From: Druceiella hillmani
Lineage: Eukaryota; Arthropoda; Insecta; Lepidoptera; Hepialidae
Direction: 5' to 3'
Assembly: GCA_039881145.1 (NCBI GenBank)
Contig: JAYKKI010000038.1
Span: forward strand, 5,940,501-6,004,500
Length of the DNA stretch: 64,000 bases
The notes under the pieces were generated by a model, which was not told the origin of the DNA, did no database searches, and saw nothing but the letters and a program-made list of their open reading frames with translations. This document shows, piece after piece, positions 29,391 to 44,815 of this stretch. Numbering within the stretch: the first letter of the stretch is position 1; the number at the start of each line of letters is the position of its first letter. The position numbers and the translations under genes were made by a program.

Positions 29391-29697
29391 AGGTACATTC
29401 GTATCTTTTAGTCTGTAATTAAGTCTAGAAAAGTTAATTTTTCACCTTCATATCAGCAGTTATGCTAGTGCAATAGCACGACAATTTAATTAACGATATA
29501 AATACAGTATTCTGCGTGCCATGTTTGTTCTCTATAATGTACGGTACAATAGACTTAGATACAGTATAGGTACATTCGTATAACGAAATTATTACGTTTT
29601 GTTTATTTTAGCATGCAATTAAGTATAGAAAAGTTAAATTTTTTGGCACATTCGTATCAGCAGCTATGGTAATTAATTATCGATAGAAATATAGTAT
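29391..29697. repeat. Diverged tandem repeat, about 177-bp period
   Basis: AGGTACATTCGTAT starts at 29391 and again at 29568; both are followed by a T-rich stretch, then AATTAAGT.TAGAAAAGTTAA, then ATCAGCAG.TATG. The copies are clearly related but diverged. A third partial piece near 29915 (TGCGTGCTATATTTGTTCTC) matches 29512-29531. Confidence 0.6.
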
Positions 29698-29698
29698 G

Positions 29699-29909
29699 TC
29701 TTATGGATTCCATTGCTCTATTTTTGGTAAAACTGTTCCCAAAATTTTCCAACTTGATTTAAGGCGCTTGCGTACTTGATGCGAAGGAATAAAATTTTTA
29801 AACAGATTTCAATCAGCACGGATAGTACCTATATATCAACGTAAGCTATAGACCAACTCATACAAAAATTAAAAATTAATAACATCATTTATTAAAAAGC
29901 CTTGGGTAT
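29699..29909. repeat. Direct repeat left of the Helitron
   Basis: About 210 bases closely matching 35917-36151, including GGCGCTTGCGTACTTGATGC, CAGATTTCAATCAGCACGGA and CATCATTTATTAAAAAGCCT. The Helitron relic lies between the two copies. The right copy carries an extra 23-base palindrome-forming insert. Confidence 0.85.
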
Positions 29910-30350
29910 CTGCGTGCTATATTTGTTCTCAATAATATATACAGCACAACTGACTGAAATACAGTACAATACTATTATTTTGCACGGGTGCCAACCCTAG
30001 ATGTGATGCCCTAAATGCCAATTTTATTAATACGTTGGAATAGCATAAGGTACGTTTGTTTAAATGAACGGCACGATTTCTAACGAAACACTTTTGTACG
30101 GCCAGTCATTACTTTTTTATTTTCGGAAATTTCACCAAAAATATTGTCATAAAAATTTAAGTTCTTCTTTAAAAATATCTTTTATTCACTACCAGCTGGG
30201 ATACCGGGCTTCGTTCAGAGAGCTGATATGAGTTTGTGCCGTAGCTGGAATAAAAGGATAAACTTTAAAATATAAGAGGTAAACATTTTTTATTGAAAAC
30301 ATGTTCTAACTATTTACAATACTTGTTTATAAACAGCATTTTTCATTTTG

Positions 30351-33300
30351 TTATCCGGGGTATATTTGTACAAAATTTTTCGAATTTTCTATTCGAGAGC
30401 AAGCTACGTATAGTTGATCGTGAGAGAGTCGGGATTCTTTGAGATTGATGCCGCAATGTTTTAAAGTTTGTCCTTGGGCTTTGTTAATTGTAAAACTGTA
30501 GGCTAATTCGATTGGAAATTGCAGTGTTTTAAATCGCAGTTCTGGCAGTTCAGTAGAGATCAGTGGTATTCTGGTGATAAATACTGTGTGTACTTTGTCC
30601 TTTCCAGTCATAAGTTGGGCTTTGATGATGTTATTAGATAGCTGTTTGACGATCATCCTTGTTCCATTATATAATTTTGATAAGTTGAGATTTCTGAGTA
30701 GTATGATCGGAGATCCAATTTTCAGTCGAACCAGTGTAATGGCATTCCTGGTATTTACAAAAAGTTTAAAAATTCTGTAGGGAAGTTGACACTTTCCGCA
30801 ACGTTTACCATCGTGTCGATCGATTTGTATATTCTCTCTTCACCGGGAATTTTTTTTTGAATATTAAAGTTGATATCATCGATAATATTATTTTTAGTTG
30901 CCAAAATTGCCCTCTGAAATAGCCACTCCGTATTGGTATAGTCGTGAATAATGTTTGTATAAATTTGGTCGATGAGTTTGTTCTCAGTAGTAGCAATGTT
31001 GCAGAAATCATTGTTCAGTTCAATGACGCCGATCGTCTGGTCAGTAGGATATGTGCCTTCGCCTATTTGTAAAAGTTTTTAGCAAAATGTGCTGTTGTTT
31101 TGTCTGTCGGTAGTTCAACTCTCACATTTTTTGTTAGTCGCAGTATATGTTGTATGACCAGAGATGTGATTTTTTAAGCGTGAATTGATTTCGTTTGATG
31201 GTGTTGACTTGGGGATAACTGGAAGTATTTGTCGAAAATCTCCTGAGAGTATAAGTAGAGCTCCTCCCATCAATTCAGAGTAGAGCTCTTCCCATTTCCT
31301 CGCAACTCTTGTAATGTTCTGTCCATGGCTTTGAATGATTTTTTATGTGCCATTGTGCATTCGTCCTAGAAGATAATTTTAGCTTGTTTTAGAAAATCAC
31401 GCCGTCCGGATGTTCTTGACATTTTACATACTGGGAATTGTTCTTCGGCTATATTCAGATAGGGCGGAAATATATAGAGCGGATTGGGCAGTTCGTCCTC
31501 CTTCCATAAATGTGGCGGCAATGCCGTATGATGCCATTACAAGTGCGATGTGTTGTTTAGCACGTATTTCTGCCAACAATAGATTTATTAGAAACGTAGA
31601 TTTTCCAGTTCTGCTTGGTTAATCCAAGTTTTTAACTTAACTTTTTTATTATCATTGAGTAGTGGTTTGTTGTGAGCAATGTATTGAAGTAGTTCGTTGA
31701 TGTTGTAAGTTTTTCCTTTTTATTTAGAAGTTTAGTACACTGAAAGCATCTTGTCGTGGTGCATCCATCCCAAGTAGTTCTAAGGTTTGTTTTTTTTAGT
31801 GCTCAACATTTATGTTCTATGAGAATGAGAGTTTCATTGAAGATGTCATCGTTGAATTCCATGGCCAGTTCTGGATGAGCTTCTGGGATTTGATACAGTA
31901 TGTCATCACTCATACTCTCTTTGAAGGAGTCCCATAACTGTATTAGATTCTATGGGTCACATGTTGCTGGTATTATGGCCAATAAGTCTCTGATTTGTTC
32001 AGCCGAGACTGTGAGTGAGGTTTCTTGTAGTGTTAATTCCCAGTGGTTGTCTTTTCCAGTAGTTCTAAGCGTTGATATGCTTCTCTGTATGTCTGGCATA
32101 GGTAACCGTCAACAGTCTTGAGATCTGTGAAACTTGTTGGTCCTCGTATTTGGTGTCCGTGATTTGGAGTTAGAAACATTCGGCATTGTTCGGATGTACG
32201 GTGTATATTCGGCATAGTGCGTTAGTTTTTATGATTCCTGGATGATCCTCTATTGGAATTTCTTGTTTTCATCGTTGAAAGATTTTTTTATTTGTGTTCC
32301 ACGTATAATATTTAGGGACGTCAACATATAGTAATATTTTCGCGAATGGATCAATTTGGCACAGTTGGAAAAAAGCTGTTAATGTTCTGTTCTTTGGTGG
32401 GTCGCTTGCAATTTTTCTGGCTTTGTCTTTTGTGAAGTAAACTCTCTGTCCATTCTTCAAATGTATTGCTAGATGTTGTACAGTTGGTTCGTGATCGTGT
32501 ATGGGAAAACCGAAAATCCGCCACGCTTCTTCGTTACTGTTGATGTATCTTTCCATTTGGTAAATGAGGATCTCGTCGTTTGTTTTATTGTTCGCTGTCT
32601 TTGGCTATTTGAAATATTGCCATGTCACTGCTTTTGTTCACATACTTACAGATATATTAAATGGATTTCACTGAATTGCAGTATTGCACGTTCAAGTGTG
32701 CTTGGAACATTTTGGAAAGTGGTAATATGGTACTACCCAATGATTATCTATTTCCAGTTCGTCTCTGGCTCGTATTCGTATTTTTGCTGTGAAGCCACTT
32801 TTTTTGGGTGATCGTCTTTTGTATATGGGATAGTCATCAGCTCCGGTTTGTGTGTAGTCCAAATATGATTTTGGGTATTTTTTGTACATTTTCTTTTGTA
32901 CCTTTACACATACATGGCGAATTGGAGTTTAATGATCCGCGTGGTCGTTGAATCATGTTTTTCACTATGTCGTACAGCTCCGGATCTTCTTGTGGATAAG
33001 AATATTTAGCTTGGACGATTTTGTCGATATCCATGAGATGCATTCTGTCGTGTAGCCATATGAGATTGTCCGAGTGAGGCAGTCCTCATTTTTGCCATTC
33101 GATTGTGTACATCCAGCATCTAACGGTTCCAAATATGTGGTATTTTGTGATGACTTTGATAAATTTCATCTGTGTTTGTCGAAAAACTCGGGTTATTATG
33201 TCGTGTTGATCCTTGGGGGCTTATGCGTATCTTAGTTGTTCTTTGATTTCTAGCCACGATGACTTACATGTCAATATTATGAAGAGGTCAGGTCGTTTAT

Positions 33301-34740
33301 ATTTTCTTACGTAGGTCGTGGCATCCTGAGTGTATTCGTATATGCGTCTAGGACTTCCTGTGTAAGATGCGGGTAAGATTACCATTGTTTCAAAATCGTC
33401 AATGTTTTCGTCATTTATGATGGCGTCTCGAAGGTGGCTCTTCTGTGCGTAGTTTCTTGAGATTCAGTTTTATGTAAAGCATGCGTTTGCTTTACGGTTC
33501 TATTTTTGCATATATATCTACCAGGAATTGTTGGAATAAACGGCGAGTGGTGAGAAGGTTGATTGTATGTTTCATTATCTCTGATCATTTAGCGGTAAGC
33601 ATATAACTCCTGGGAAGTTACTTTTTTTTTGTTTATACGCCTGTTTCAGGTTGGATTTCTATCACATTAAAATGGTATCCGTCCTCTCCGTGCAGAAATT
33701 TTAATGGATATTGGAGGGCATCATATGAACGGAGTGTTTCTACAGTGCGTTGTAGTCGTTCTCTTCTTCGTTGTACAAGTATGTCACGGATTGTGTTTCA
33801 CGGTATTGCCCACAATTACGATGCCGACTTCGCCTATCTGAGGTGTTTCCAGGTTCGTGTTTTCCAGGTGGTCTCTTGTCGGCTCCAGTTATTACTTTAT
33901 AGTTATCAGAAATAATTCGGACTAGTGCTGTTTTGAATATGTGAATAAGTTGATTGTATTTGTGTAAGGACCTCTGTACATCTTGGGTAATTTTTATCTC
34001 AATCCACTTATATTTGTGCACTGTTGATCAATTTATATTTCTTTATTTCCGATGAAACATACTTGCAGAAATGTATAGTCTTCGTTGGGTAGTGGTAGTA
34101 ACGATCTCATTTTGTGATAAATTTGCCCTTGGATGGAAAAAGTATTATCTATTTCATCTCTGTTAGTGAAAACCTAAGTGAAAATCTAAGTGAAATCGAA
34201 AGAAGTCATTTGGAAGCCGGTGTTGTACGCTTTTATATTTTGAAGTAAGTGTCTTGATTCTGGTGTTTTCCCGGTCATCTAATGTAGAAATTCCTGCGTA
34301 GGTGGAATTTTTGCTTGGTGTTTCTCTACGGAATTTTTTTGCATTGCGAAATTGGCAGATATTATCCAATTTTCCGATTACGACGTGTTTGTGCTTGTTA
34401 TATTCTTTCGTCGCGTCATAGTGGAATGCTTTCAGTTGTTAGGTTGTACCGCGTACTTGTCCTCGTCTGCGCTTCTCGTAGGGTGATCTTTTCATGGGTG
34501 GCATATGTTCGTATTCTTTTATTATAATATTGTATCGCAATTCTTGATTCTTTAATGCGTTCATTTCGTTATTCTTTGGTTTCTCTTTTTCTAGAGATGC
34601 TCATTCTCGTTCGTTTGGAAACGTGCTTCGCGCTCGACTCTTTCGTTTTTTCGCTGTTCTTTTTGTTTTCGCCGTTTTGCTTCAGAACTGGCAAGTTTTC
34701 CTCAAATACACTAAGTACAATTTAAACATTTTTTCACATT
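30351..34740 (-). pseudogene. Helitron Rep-helicase (RepHel), broken
   Basis: Read from high to low coordinates across many stops and frameshifts. N-terminal segment: HKHVVIGKLDNICQFRNAKK then FRRETPS near 34330-34410, a standard Helitron start region. Rep region at 33050-33400: PASYTGSPRRIYEYTQDATT, RPDLFIILTC and, after a stop, GLPHSDNLIWL where family members have PHAH. Two-tyrosine motif YICKY at 32642-32656, with a stop three codons before. Then WRIFGFPIHDHEP and AFFQLCQIDPFAKILLYVDV (32300-32540). Pif1-type helicase: Walker A PSRTGKSTFLIN at 31580-31618, GDFRQILPV near 31215-31242, and the C-terminal INKAQGQTLKHCGI and YVACSRIENS (30370-30500). Function in life: nicking, strand transfer and unwinding in rolling-circle transposition. 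This copy is inactive. Confidence 0.93.
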
Positions 34741-34822
34741 TTATTTTTATTTACGTAACTATATCACTTTGATTATTCACATTCCACTGTTTGTTTTTAT
34801 TCACTCACTGCACTTCACTGAT

Positions 34823-34868
34823 AAAAAACTGACGTTTGAGCCCATGACGGATCTTGCTTTATATATCT
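34823..34868 (-). promoter_or_regulatory. Core promoter of the Helitron: TATA box and initiator
   Basis: On the minus strand ATATATAAAGC (complement of 34856-34866) is a strong TATA box. About 28-35 bases downstream is TCAGTT (complement of 34827-34832), the arthropod initiator hexamer. A 5' leader of about 100 bases runs from there to the first Rep-helicase sequence. Spacing fits arthropod core promoters. Confidence 0.75.
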
Positions 34869-34933
34869 CTACCAATGGGTAGCCACACCCATACAAAAAG
34901 TTTGGAAATTTTGAATTTTGAAACAAAGGTTTG

Positions 34934-35086
34934 GAATGTTTCACATTGTTCGTGAACATTCTACAACATTCGAAAATGTTCTGAAACGTTCCATAATGAT
35001 GTGGGATGTTCCCAAACGTTCCAGACTATTCCCAAACATTTCACAACGTTCCAGAATGTTCCGAGATATTCTGGAATGTTGTGGAA
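34934..35086. promoter_or_regulatory. Heat-shock-element array, 31 pentamer slots in one register
   Basis: Every fifth base position from 34934 starts a slot. Exact TTC falls at 34949, 34959, 34969, 34979, 34989, 35009, 35019, 35029, 35049, 35059 and 35069. Exact GAA falls at 34934, 34954, 35054, 35074 and 35084. Other slots are mostly one or two mismatches off (TTT, AAA, AGA, GGA, CAA). Perfect three-box heat shock elements are TTCGTGAACATTC at 34949 and TTCCAGAATGTTC at 35049. Heat shock factor trimers bind alternating GAA/TTC pentamers. The array lies about 70 bases above the Helitron TATA box. Confidence 0.8.
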
Positions 35087-35102
35087 TGCTATAAATACTC
35101 GA

Positions 35103-35135
35103 GAATGCTCTGGACTGTTCTAGAAATTTCTAGAG
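35103..35135. promoter_or_regulatory. Second heat-shock-element block
   Basis: Seven consecutive pentamers in a second register, starting GAATG at 35103 and centred on TTCTAGAAATTTCTAGAG at 35118. The centre is a perfect alternating four-box element, except for the last GAG. It lies further upstream of the Helitron promoter than the 153-bp array. Confidence 0.78.
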
Positions 35136-35588
35136 CGTGAAACTTCCAGCCCTTAAGCACGCCTTTCAGGTAAAACGGGAATTTTCTTCATGGATGGGGG
35201 ATAGAGGGCTACCACCCATATAACTCCCTTGTTCGTACCGGGACTCATTTCTGAGTTTTAGCGGCACGCACATTGTACACTTACTTTTATAAAATATATT
35301 GATTGTTACAGAACTTGAACGCGGAGGACAGTTTTCGGATTTTATTACTTTGATAGCCAAAATTAGGCAAATACAAATTTCTAGTGGTTTTATAGTATAT
35401 ATATATATAGAATTTAGTTTTTCCATTATTGATATCTTAAACACTAAAATGTGTCAAATTTTAAGGTTCTAGCTTTTCTGGGACTGACCTATTAGTTTTA
35501 ATGATCTATCAATGAGTAAGTGAGGAAGCTACGAAATTGATAATTTGTTATGTCAAATATCACGGAAAGTGCTATAGATACAATTTAT

Positions 35589-35970
35589 AACTTATAATAA
35601 ACAAATATTGACCTTTTCACATGCTAAAAGTCAGATTTCGAACATTGACTGTAGCTGGGTTATTTAGTGTCAAAATTACAAAAAAACGCTGGCGACGTCT
35701 TGATTTATGGACAAATGACTGTCTGTTGTCTTATAGAATTCGTTGCTCTATTTTTGATAAAAGTGTTCCCAAAAATTGTAACTTATAATAAACAAAAATT
35801 GTCCTTTTCACATGCTAAAAGTCAGATTTCGAACATTGACTGTAGCTGAGTTATTTAGTGTCAAAATAACAAGAAAACGCTGGCGACGTCTTGATTTATG
35901 GACAAATGACTGACTGTTGTCTTATGGAATCCGTTGCTCTATTTTCGATAAAAGTGTTCCCAAAATTATC
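35589..35970. repeat. 191-bp tandem duplication
   Basis: AACTTATAATAAACAAA starts at 35589 and at 35780. Each copy continues through AAGTCAGATTTCGAACATTG and AACGCTGGCGACGTCTTGAT to GTGTTCCCAAAA. The second copy runs directly into the direct repeat at 35917. Confidence 0.92.
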
Positions 35971-36151
35971 CAACATAATTTAAGGCGCTTGCGTGCTTGA
36001 TGCGAAGGAATAAAATTTTTGATTTCGCCGAAATCAAAATTTTAAACAGATTTCAATCAGCACGGATAGTACCTATATATCAACGTAAGCTATAGACCAA
36101 CCCATACAAAAATTAAAAATTAATAACATCATTTATTAAAAAGCCTTCGGT
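35917..36151. repeat. Direct repeat right of the Helitron
   Basis: Second copy of the repeat at 29699-29909. It contains an extra GATTTCGCCGAAATCAAAAT insert that forms a short palindrome (GATTTCG/CGAAATC). The two copies are in direct orientation and more than 6 kb apart. Confidence 0.85.
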
Positions 36152-39100
36152 ATCTCTTTCAAAACATTACCTCGAATAAAGTTTTTGGTGCTAGAAAGTG
36201 TCTTTAGTCGGTTGCTATTGCGCTAATTAATTTGTCTTATAAATTATATATATTTCTTTTGCACAATCGAATAGAAGGAAGTTTTAATTCAAGCAATTCC
36301 TTAGGTCACGTGTCAATACTCGCCGACGTACAACTAAGGTGATTACATTACACTTTAGTTGAAAACTGAACATGTCGTGACCTAGCAACATTTTATTCTC
36401 TACCAAGGGTATTAATTTCGGCGACCAACGGACCGCTAACCATAATCGAAAAGCTCCTGCCACTTGTGACCTTGAGTGCGGCGCAAAAGGCGCACCGGAC
36501 GTGCGTCACGGATACGCCCCTCAGCCGGAACAGATTTTTTTTAATTTGCATAGGTTTTATTAGCTAAGTGGCCAGTGGAAACTTGTCGGGTCAAGGCATC
36601 GATCGAATGTCCAAGTATGTGTGAAAGCCAGTCGGTGAATTTTTGAAAGGAGGTTTGTCTCTTGTTTATTCTATTCGTTCTAATTTGTTTTGTTAAGGTA
36701 AATAGAGGCTTTGATTAAAATTATTTTGTTGAGTAGTCCCCAACGAAATTATTTAATGGATTATACTTGACTTTACATTGCGATAGCTTTTTATTTTAAC
36801 CTTTGCACGTAACATGGATTAGAATTTTGAAAGAAAAATTATTCGATACGTTGTAATTATCGATTAATACATTTTTAAAGTTTGTACAAACAGTAATGTT
36901 TTAATTCAATTATTTATTTATTTTTTTGTGATTTTAATGCCGAAAAGTGTAATAAATAAAATGAGTTATAATAATTGACGACAACAAAAAAATTAAGTGA
37001 TAGTTTATAATTAGACGAAAGTTAAACAAACATTTTAAATTATGTCTAATAATAACTATCTACCACGTTCCATGGTAAAGTTATTTTTGTTTATCCCATA
37101 ACGGGATAGCGCTAAGGTATTCATGTAAGTATAGCGTACGAAACAGTTTATGTACATATAGGCACAGTTATATTTTTAACTTACATGATTTGACGAAGAA
37201 ATTAATTACAGCGATACAAGTTACTGTGTCCAAATATTTAAACTGTAGCATAAAGGAAGTACTGAACTGAATGTTCTAACAGACGTAACTTAGAAATTTT
37301 AGACGAATGGTGTTTAAAAACGATTGTAATCGACTTCAGCAAATATTAGGTAAATAAGTAACACAAAGCTAATGTAATAAACACATGTCGCTGTTTCTAA
37401 CTTTTGCAGATTATTATTTCACGGATCTCTCACCTTGTTATACGATCAATTATGAAAAAAACAAGTGTTTTTAAACGATACGTTTCTCCTTCCCATTAAT
37501 GTCTTGTTATGGTTATTTAAAGTTATGATTAATTCTTGAATATCATCATGGGTAGCAGGACACCATTTTGTGGAGTTATCCTTGGTTTTCCATGCTTATT
37601 TATCCTTCACTAAATTCTTAACATTTTGTTGATTCCTTCATTTATATACGGGCAAATTTTTGCTTATATTGGAAATATGTAATTGACATATTCATGTTTC
37701 CATTATCGTTGTTAACTTTTTTTCTAAAAATCATAAATACACATAAATTCCTAGAAATTTTATTTTTTATGTTTCAACTTCAACATTTGATGTTGGTACT
37801 ATAATATACACGAAAAAAGCGTAGAAATACATGGAATTATATATTTTAAGTGTTAGGATAAAAAGAGCGAAGTCTATGAGTATGTTCGGTACGAGGCGGC
37901 GGCGTCGAGCAGAGGGAGCACTCGCCTAGCAGCTTATCTGAGGCCATCTGGTGGTGCCCGAGACCTTGAAGCGTTAGGGGGCACCGCCCCGACGTCGAAT
38001 GACCGCCACGACGTCTTAACCGCATACTTGCAACGTAGTATTATCGACTTATCATCACTACCCGAGCTTTATTACATTTATTTATTCTTTGTTTTATGTT
38101 CATACAGAAAGTTGACCGTTGTACAGTATGTTTCTACGAAATAAAATTTAAATACATTTTATACATTTCCTAATGAAATATCATTCATTTATCTAATTTC
38201 ATTTTTGTTAGAAAATGTAATCTTTTGTGATATTAATTTCGGCTCTTTTTTTGAAAACATTTACCTATAAACAAGACACCTTTTCCTTTAAAATTAAAGA
38301 TTAATTTTTTCCTGAGCACGTCATCTCATCGTTTAATGATAATGCTACGAAAGGAAAGTGCTGTATTTTGTTAATTTTAGATAAATTATCAGTTATACCT
38401 GCCATGACTGATTAAACAAATTGTTCGGAAGTATTTTTTTATTATGGAGAGATAGAAGCTGTTTTGGATTTCTAAAATATTAATTTAAGGTCAAAATTAT
38501 TCAGAAAATTGTAACTTTTTAAGAGTGAATAATTAGTCATAACTACTACTATTTCGTCTTCCTGTGTCGTACCAAATCGAGAATGTTTCTGTCGTGGCCA
38601 CAGTCGTTATCTTGCGTCTGAATCTATCGCTCAGCTTTTTATCTGATTATTCTCTTAGTGAAACCGCAGAATAAAAGTTCAACCAAATAAATTATCGTTA
38701 AAACTTGGAAACGTAAATCCAGCAACGCCACCCCCATTCGTCATTGTCGCACCGTTTTCGTTGCGCTGCAATCCTTCGACCTTAACTTTGCCATCGGTTT
38801 TTTGCTCACTTTACGCAATTCGTTAATAACGCTAAGGCCAGTTCTTTACGAGCCGTCATTTCACAACATAATTACTAGTCCTTATGTCTAAGGACACAGG
38901 GCAAAAACCTTTGTGTTAACCTCCCGATCGTGTAGAGATGTGTTATTAAGAAATTGAATTTATTTCACGTTCATTTGGAGCTATAACTATCGTATAATAA
39001 GAGTGCATAGTATTACATTTTACTTCAAAGCACGATAAGATTATTGAGCTATTAACAATAGCAGAATCATAGTAAACTTTTGGAGAATTGTACGATATAT

Positions 39101-42299: not shown

Positions 42300-42349
42300 A
42301 TCTGCCAGGCGTCCCATGATGACTCAGAATGGTTTTCATTTAAGTCGGC

Positions 42350-42466
42350 CATGGCGAGTGGGTATCGGATAAGAACCACATGGCGAGTGGGTATCGGATA
42401 AGAACCACATGGGGAGTGGGTATCGGATAAGAACCACATTGCGAGTGGGTATCGGATAAGAACCAC
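42350..42466. repeat. 29-bp tandem repeat in the left LTR, four copies
   Basis: CATGGCGAGTGGGTATCGGA starts at 42350, 42379, 42408 and 42437, with one or two changes per unit. The right LTR has one related unit only (CATGGCGTGTGGGTAT at about 44533), so the expansion came after insertion. Confidence 0.93.
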
Positions 42467-42739
42467 AATGGCGACTGAAATTACGTACAATATAATTTGT
42501 ATTGGATTTTACTATTAATCATAAGAATAAATTCGATACTAATTTAATCACTTTGAATGAAATATAGACATAGATTACGCAGAATTTAGCGATTCTTCAA
42601 GGATGTGGTGGGCGACCCGCTCCTTCAAAGAAAAGTTCCTTTCGACATGGCCGTCACCCACCATCGACACGACGCTACTACAGAGAATGACAGTTATCAT
42701 CTTCGAACATAAGCACCTTGGTGAATATTTTATAACAAT

Positions 42740-43707
42740 TGATTTTGTCGTTTGAAGTACTAATTGCTCGTTGATGTCTTAATGTCGCTCAATATTTTAT
42801 TCGAATCCCTTTCAATAATTGTTAGCAAGCTCTTAAGCGCACGCGTAACACATTCTACCTATTCGTTGTTCGTTGCAAAAAAATAGAAATCAATCTTATG
42901 TTCAGCATAGAAGTTTTAAAATTCTGCACTGACATAGCACCAACCCTGATCGGAAATAATACGCTTAGGTGCATCAAAAAGACAAACAGCTTTTTTAAGA
43001 GCTAACGAAGCACTGGATGCATCTAATGGTGTATGCTCTAGCATGATGAACTTATAAAATGAGTCGGTAATAACCGAACGATACTCTTTACGGTGGCTTT
43101 CCTGTTAGTTTTTTGCTGAAGTCTATATGAATTGTGTGCCTAGGCGCCGACATTTTTTGAATCAGATGTAGTAGAATGAGTTGTCTGAAGAGCCTTTTGA
43201 CGTCTTGCAAATGATACGAGACTTTATAAACTTTCTTACATATATTTTTCGTAAAATTTGTTTAGAGTCTTGCCAGTACCAAAATGTTGAAATTCATTAT
43301 GAACATGATTTGATGAGGACCCAAATCAGTGAGCGCGGAACCACGGGTAGCCAGGAGATAATCTTATTTCGAACAACTTTTCTATAAAGTATGCCGTCAC
43401 GAACGTCGTACGTGTACGTGACAGTATCGGGGAAGCTGTTATTAATTTGATTCACAATTAAATGTAAGATCTCACTATCGACTTCTGTGTTACTTAAAAT
43501 TTGAGATGTATATTTAACATCATCACTCCCAATATCCGTAAGGTGAATGAGAGTTGTGCTCACAGTACCTAGAAATTGACTACAGAATCTCTTTTTCAAA
43601 AGGAAGCAAAATGAGTCACTATCAAATAAAAACGTTACTGGCTCACTGGAAGACGTGTCGAGGTGAAGTGCTCGCATAAGTTCACTACCTTTACTGCAAC
43701 ACCACAT
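42740..43707 (-). pseudogene. Gypsy integrase fragment
   Basis: From high to low coordinates: an upstream segment with a 136-codon open frame (43707-43297) ending in VRDGILYRKV and WLPVVPRSL, the zinc-binding lead-in of Gypsy integrases. Then, across frameshifts, FQHFGTGKTLNK (the HH part of the HHCC finger region). Then the catalytic core segment RIISDQGWCYVSAEF at 42967-42913, where the D of ISDQG is one of the DDE acids. Stops and shifts make it inactive. In life it would insert the element's DNA copy into the genome. Confidence 0.75.
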
Positions 43708-44102
43708 TTATTATTTGAATAAACAGGCACTAAGTAGCCCGGGTTGTTGCAGAAATAGTACGTAACTGGAGCAGGCATCTTCTCGGCATGGCACGCTGAT
43801 CATCATGTTTCAGAGAATTTTGATGTTCTAAACTCTCCTCGTGTTCTTCTATTGAATTAACGATATCCAGCTAATCCACGGTAATTACATTTACCAAAAA
43901 ACCTCTTGATTCGTTTTGCATCAGAGTCTTGAGTCTCACTAACATCCAGTCGACGTTTGAGTAAAATGCCATCAAGAACAACTAAGCTCTAATGGTTACA
44001 GTATGTGCGTTTAATTTGCGGCGTATTACGCCATCCTTGTGAGATAAAAGCACTTAATATACCTAATACTTCCTCTGGCATCTCAGTCTTTGATATACAT
44101 GC

Positions 44103-44155
44103 GATCATATCCAATCATATCTAATCATATCCAATCACATCCAAGCACATCCATA
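44103..44155. repeat. 10-11 bp tandem repeat inside the Gypsy relic
   Basis: About six diverged units of AATCATATCC / AATCACATCC. Confidence 0.8.
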
Positions 44156-44815
44156 ATCGCATGGTAGATTTAGAAACAGTTTCTTTCATTACTATTTGAA
44201 ATCGTAATATATCATCAAAGTAATCCTGCATTAATTTTGGCTTCGCAAATCTTGCTAGTACCGTTTGCTTTACTATGTCAGTTCATTCAAATTCAATTTA
44301 GTGGAGAAGGTAGCTGCTCGGCATTTAAGTGCACCAATCAGAAAAATAAGCAATTTTACACCTTCATTGGACACAACAGTATTATTACTGTTATTATTCC
44401 CTGTGGTCGGTTGTGACGTCGTCAAAAATAATGAAAGTAGATTATTCTAATCTGGTAGTTTTTCTTCCTCTTGCTCTCCTTGTTTAATCCCATTTCTGAT
44501 ATAAACCCAAGATGGTTTTCATTTAAGTCGATCATGGCGTGTGGGTATATCCAAGAAAATATAAGTAATGGCAGTTGAAAATCATGAACAATATAACTTG
44601 TATTTACCAATTCGACACTAATTACGATAATGTGCACACTATATAATTTAATCGCTTTGAAGGAAATATAGACATAGATTACTCAGAATTTTGCGATTCT
44701 TCGTGGACGTGGTGGGCGGCCCGCTCTTTCAAAAGAAAGGTGGCGTTCAATATGGCCGACGCCGACCATCGACATTACGCTCCGCTAGAGAATGACAGTT
44801 GTCATTTTGCGTTCT

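Follow-up and report, generated by a model that had tools for sequence, protein, structure and literature searches.

A heat-shock-element array before the predicted transposase promoter of a decayed Helitron family in the lepidopteran Druceiella hillmani

A decayed Helitron at the locus

The window (the whole stretch of DNA that was analysed, 64,000 nucleotides of contig JAYKKI010000038.1) contains a decayed Helitron whose transposase gene is read on the minus strand. The element and its coding remains, in window positions, are as follows.

30192–35302, minus strand: Helitron of family A, decayed copy, 5111 bp, delimited by the ends of homology in other copies and by TC/CTRR termini
33221–33463, minus strand: Rep piece of the transposase (Helitron_like_N, PF14214; Pfam, E 1.1e-13)
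31424–31618 and 31115–31342, minus strand: PIF1 helicase pieces in a broken frame (Pfam, E 1.1e-9 and 2.7e-7)
30351–30839, minus strand: Pif1 2B domain piece, close to the transposase end (Pfam, E 2.3e-8)
30192–30213, minus strand: 3' terminus, where GCC.GGG...CCC.AGC may form a short stem right before CTAG in the consensus (CTGG in the window copy)

The ends were located by BLAST of window positions 29500–36300 against 39 other copies, 20 of which were fetched long (∼8 kb each). The 5' homology limit fell at 35297–35308 in 28 of the 39 other copies, the remaining 11 stopping earlier, and the 3' limit fell at 30181–30191 in 9 of the 20 long-fetched copies, slightly beyond in 2 and earlier in 9. 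On the element strand, the 5' end of the window copy reads TCAATATATTTTATAAAAGTAAG, with TC preceded by A. By pattern search, 5' TC was found in 26 of 34 ends including that of the window copy, and A preceded it in 21 of these 26. Among the 12 other copies whose match gets to the 3' end, 11 end in CTAG and all 12 have T as the next base; the window copy ends in CTGG, then T. The element thus has the termini of a Helitron, namely 5' TC, 3' CTRR and insertion between A and T. The predicted 3' stem was weak (–2.8 kcal/mol, z –0.04) and no better than in shuffled sequences.

A Pfam scan of nine minus-strand frames with curated cut-offs gave matches in four of them, and PF14214, PF05970 and PF21530 lie in order on the same strand, which is the Rep and PIF1-type helicase combination of Helitrons. 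The transposase frame of the window copy is interrupted by stops, and three other long frames of the window gave no Pfam match. From the Rep and PIF1 pieces, the homology limits and the termini, the window element was assigned as a Helitron of 5111 bp. The earlier note, made from the letters of this DNA, had already called it a Helitron, and the Rep and PIF1 pieces, the TC and CTAG ends and the A and T flanks support that identity.

An in-register array of heat-shock boxes

An array of TTC and GAA boxes lies upstream of the minus-strand transposase gene.

34934–35148, no strand assigned: heat-shock-element (HSE) array of alternating TTC/GAA pentamers, with a core at 34934–35086 in one register and the rest slipped; also present in the 39 other fetched copies

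By script count, 34934–35086 contains 11 exact TTC and 5 exact GAA boxes, every one at a position equal to 4 modulo 5, together with perfect three-box elements at 34949 and 35049, just as the earlier note had counted. Against the 16 boxes in this 153-bp stretch, 5000 dinucleotide shuffles of it averaged 3.55 boxes and never had more than 8, and no separate 153-bp place elsewhere in the window had more than 7. The match to an alternating TTCnnGAAnn template was 81% of letters, compared with at most 48% in shuffles and 52% at the next window place. In the permutation comparison that the earlier note had proposed, shuffled sequence fell short on both scores, and the in-register array is far above chance. 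The core in a single register stood as the note had described it, whereas its extent did not: the real array is longer and reaches ∼35148, with phase 3 at 35103–35128 and phase 4 again at 35139 and 35144.

The array precedes a predicted core promoter, for which two motifs were recognized.

34857–34865, minus strand: TATA box TATATAAAG belonging to the Rep/Hel gene, at a distance of 69 bp from the array; kept in the 40-copy consensus
34828–34832, minus strand: TCAGT initiator-like motif whose A, at 34830, is 35 bp away from the T that opens the TATA box; kept in the 40-copy consensus

On the gene (minus) strand, the order is the 5' end of the element, the array from 35148 to 34934, TATATAAAG at 34865–34857, TCAGT at 34832–34828, which we take to be an arthropod initiator-like motif, and the coding region. 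The array lies ∼150–370 bp from the 5' terminus. As in HSE-bearing Helitrons of the Caenorhabditis type, HSEs are found upstream of the Rep/Hel gene, and the array, lying before TATA, TCAGT and coding region, occupies the position of an upstream promoter region of the transposase gene. Array, TATA box and TCAGT in front of the Rep/Hel gene have the layout of a putative heat-shock promoter.

Copies of family A in the genome

The 2.59-Gb genome was searched with window positions 34820–35140, a query that contains the array, and 62 matches were obtained from the best 40 of 1069 candidates. The array was present in 39 of 39 other fetched copies, a figure that would miss array-free copies because the query included the array. 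At least one perfect three-box element was found in 40 of 40 copies including the window copy, and in 0 of 40 shuffled ones (one shuffle each). The number of boxes per 153 bp across the 40 copies ranged from 10 to 20 with a median of 15, compared with at most 5 in shuffled sequences. Multiple canonical HSEs in many copies, another trait of the Caenorhabditis-type elements, are thus seen in 40 of 40 copies fetched with a query that held the array. The suggestion that such an element spread HSEs across the genome is upheld at the sequence level by these 39 further array-bearing copies, and the genome scan proposed along with it found the array in every fetched copy, again with the array in the query.

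The mean divergence from the consensus at non-CpG sites was 15.6% (10.5–27.9%), a value somewhat inflated by flanking bases in the alignment, which indicates that family A is, on sequence divergence, old. At least 6 of the 20 long loci (L009, L015, L016, L025, L026 and L027) are internally deleted, and the array is retained in the internally deleted copies. Two fixed TTC boxes are 30 bp apart in 17 of 40 copies and 40 bp apart in 15; in the remaining eight copies the distance is 23, 29, 33, 39 or 42 bp. The main change in array length is one whole 10-bp unit.

Slots and spacers

It had been proposed that a register kept over some 150 bases argues for selection or tandem growth, and that slots should be better kept than spacers among copies. 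With CpG excluded, mismatches to the family A consensus were 6.9% in exact slots, 9.6% in the rest of the array and 14.1% in the flanks; the lower mismatch of the array relative to its flanks may stem from the choice of query. The base-stratified difference between slots and spacers in family A copies was –0.008 (permutation p 0.13). Within inserted copies of A, slots were accordingly not significantly better kept than spacers, and the expected difference was not borne out. In the related set B (described below), mismatches were 17.6% in slots, 19.8% in spacers and 16.7% in the flank. Selection on inserted copies was dropped as an explanation in view of the p value in A and the similar slot and spacer figures in B. 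Since slots and spacers are alike within copies, the insertions appear to decay neutrally, with no clear protection of the boxes.

A different picture was given by the repeat units of the consensus. In the A consensus, the information across repeat units was 1.05–2.00 bits at the six slot positions and 0.49–0.83 bits at the four spacer positions, and in the B consensus it was 1.20–1.81 bits for slots and 0.24–1.38 bits for spacers. Among the 210 labellings of four spacer positions, the true one was the most extreme in A, and 5 reached the observed value in B, in a comparison where the boxes themselves defined the register, the segments were chosen manually with slipped stretches omitted, A and B are related, and slot bases are partly A and T, which mutate more slowly. 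The separation was seen in the consensus only; in the window copy alone, slot and spacer information overlapped (0.25–2.00 and 0.31–1.08 bits). The unit-to-unit slot pattern would fit constraint on the source element, and plain tandem growth would not be expected to give such a pattern. Of the proposal that the register reflects selection, the part concerning the source element thus retains a signal in the consensus repeat units, whereas what is kept after insertion does not point to selection.

Related array-bearing sets

Perfect five-box HSEs (TTCnnGAAnnTTCnnGAAnnTTC) number 413 in the genome with overlaps counted, compared with 25 for the reversed pattern. Among the matches listed, 100 rows on contigs C1–C10 represent 77 separate sites. 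Fifty five-box sites were fetched as a non-random sample, 12 being picked by eye and 38 taken by hand from across the list. These 50 fell into clusters D (14), A (11), C (7), B (5) and others (13); in the 38 hand-spread sites the numbers were 10, 9, 3, 3 and 13, respectively, so that A, B or C account for 15 of the 38. For 11 of 11 A sites, membership was confirmed by matching sequence that lies beyond the array.

The 5' end of A was matched by two of the five sampled B members (80% of 41 bp and 87% of 53 bp), and the promoter flank of A was matched by none of the five. With one B member as query, 56 matches were obtained from the best 40 of 79 candidates, and a B consensus was made from eighteen copies. 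It has TATATATAG below the array and TCAGT 31 bp further on, and its array is ∼400 bp long with register slips. The B consensus agrees with the template at 89% of letters in the scored segments and at 96% in its best 78 bp, the A consensus at 88%. There was no Rep match in the flank of the one B member that was inspected, and B is therefore tied to Helitrons by the kinship of its 5' end only.

The C array consists of a short run of good boxes inside a longer degenerate array. At one C locus, L055, two stretches resemble N-terminal pieces of the window transposase, with protein identities of 47.5% and 50% (E 1.6e-10 and 2.1e-7, respectively). No Pfam match was obtained in four frames at L055, nor in ten frames beside B and C.

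Cluster D, the largest among the sampled sites, consists of tandem units of ∼110 bp that contain five-box heat-shock words and is found at L048–L051, L081, L082, L087, L090, L095, L096, L099, L103, L112 and L113. A Helitron assignment for D was dropped, as it is such a tandem unit with HSE words and no link to Rep was shown.

One further locus, L109 (G000:C8:27195210-27195810), has HSEs followed by TATATAAG, an hsp-like promoter layout, with no long open frame in the 1.5 kb beyond. Its interpretation as a host hsp promoter was dropped, because no open stretch of the joined 2.1 kb exceeded 120 codons, and the one of that length was on the opposite strand.

Young Helitron families without the array

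A search of the genome with Pfam PF14214 was considered for the best 150 of 5330 candidates, 25 rows of which had a stop-free open frame of at least 1100 codons. As a control sample, the 2.2 kb upstream of Helitron_like_N was taken in 14 of the 150 (L063–L076, G000), representing five families. No array was found in these 14 copies of five young families, whose highest counts, 4–6 in-register boxes in 150 bp, stay under the 7–9 reached in shuffles. The array is thus no general Helitron feature and is dispensable for Helitron movement. Open frames of 1116–1490 codons were seen in some of the young-family copies, and the upstream regions were 95–99% identical within three of the five families, suggesting that these array-free families have probably been active recently.

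The N-terminal pieces of the window transposase are 37–63% identical to those of the array-free young families and 47–50% identical to C. With these values, a simple shared-clade explanation was dropped; judged from these sequences, the distribution of the array is patchy and does not track overall transposase similarity in any simple way.

Interpretation of the array

We consider, with a probability of about 0.78, that the array would serve the Helitron as upstream activating region for its own Rep/Hel promoter, where bound heat shock factor (HSF) would drive the transposase under heat. Judged by its position, the array is part of the predicted transposase promoter and has multiplied along with the element. 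Heat induction itself, for which promoter anatomy and analogy to known elements are the best guide, is likewise considered probable. In the ancestor, HSF trimers would have bound the alternating TTC/GAA boxes cooperatively, and the bound factor would have driven transcription from the TATA box and initiator ∼70–110 bp away. Transposase would then be produced under heat or other protein stress, and rolling-circle copying would take the array to other genome sites, including by way of internally deleted copies. The inserted copies would now be in neutral decay. Dozens of related copies with the array upstream of the transposase promoter suggest an element that was once heat-switched and scattered HSF sites round the genome. 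The array and its position, the promoter motifs, the copies and the related sets are observed in the sequence; factor binding, heat induction, any gain for the element and any effects on host genes are what we infer from this arrangement.

The array might instead be a 10-bp minisatellite that grew by slippage in the Helitron, resembling HSEs by chance and having no HSF function. This would agree with array lengths that vary in whole 10-bp units, with spacers that decay about as fast as slots within copies, and with the similar words in the ∼110-bp tandem repeat of D. Neutral growth, however, predicts ten equally variable positions, whereas the consensus slots are less variable, and the arrays recur upstream of TATA in both A and B as well as beside Helitron-like coding sequence at one C locus. 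We therefore regard a chance minisatellite as rather unlikely.

The two remaining explanations would give the array no transcriptional use for the element. Helitrons capture host DNA, and a TATA box with HSEs is hsp-like, so that the array could be the relic of a captured host heat-shock gene promoter, passively copied and never useful to the element; this is very improbable, as the array is present in 40 of 40 examined copies and still longer in B, which fits maintenance better than passive carriage. Least probable of all is a transposase or replication site at the 5' end. Its distance of ∼150–370 bp from the 5' terminus and its presence in internally deleted copies would suit such a site, but fourteen copies of five young Helitron families do without it, and the period and alternation of the pentamer boxes match those of HSF trimer sites.

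Comparison with known heat-responsive elements

An HSF-driven Rep/Hel promoter would be of a kind already known. According to Garrigues et al. 2019 (PMC6927752), the Caenorhabditis Helitrons Helitron1_CE, HelitronY1_CE, HelitronY4_CE and Helitron7_CB carry HSEs, 61.4% of C. elegans HSEs are in Helitrons, and 14 HSEs lie in the promoter of the heat-induced C. elegans Rep/Hel gene F33H12.6, a gene of Helitron1_CE. The Druceiella hillmani element resembles these Helitrons in its dense HSEs, including those in the Rep/Hel promoter, and in the many non-autonomous copies that spread them (PMC6927752). It differs in that HSF-1 binding and induction were measured there, whereas here they are predicted from sequence. 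The wheat Xuan-Feng Helitron (PMC13286980) has a predicted nTTCnnGAAn motif in the Feng promoter regions, and the Feng8 promoter was heat-responsive in a GUS assay. A heat-shock motif in Helitron promoter regions, there a predicted element, is thus common to both; unlike the present case, the wheat element is from a plant, is described with a minimal motif and no 200–400 bp array, and involves Feng8 mobilising its partner Xuan1. ONSEN/ATCOPIA78 (PMC5059998) is likewise reported to be a mobile element activated by heat through heat-responsive elements in its own regulatory region, the difference being that ONSEN is a retrotransposon and no Helitron. The kind is therefore known from Caenorhabditis and, with a simple motif, from wheat, and the Druceiella hillmani element is another genome's case. 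In the literature searched on Helitrons and heat shock elements or factor, a body of text that lay mostly outside subscription papers, no insect Helitron with HSE arrays was found described.

The 2019 survey found HSE enrichment in Helitrons in three Caenorhabditis species only, among UCSC genomes with annotated Helitrons, and its authors concluded that the link may be restricted to Caenorhabditis (PMC6927752). If a further lineage had longer arrays in several of its sets, stress-timed transposition would count as a strategy that recurs among Helitrons. We tentatively suggest, as a possibility short of an even chance, that the hijacking of HSF by Helitrons arose repeatedly (in nematodes, in wheat and here in several sets, namely A and C and probably also B), whereas young families of similar relatedness went without it. 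If true, the A, B and C sets would hold a large share of the genome's strongest HSF sites and could rewire the stress response. Array-bearing and array-free families in one genome would be natural replicates for the question of whether heat control aids transposon spread.

Other repeats in the window

A 191-bp repeat occurs in two tandem copies, 94–95% alike, at 35582–35963, ∼280 bp outside the 5' end of the Helitron. A direct repeat also flanks the Helitron outside its ends, at 29697–29911 and 35918–36155 (two pieces, 91% and 97%). Further away, 42327–44808 contains 29-bp tandem units in a run, together with two more direct repeats ∼2.1 kb apart.
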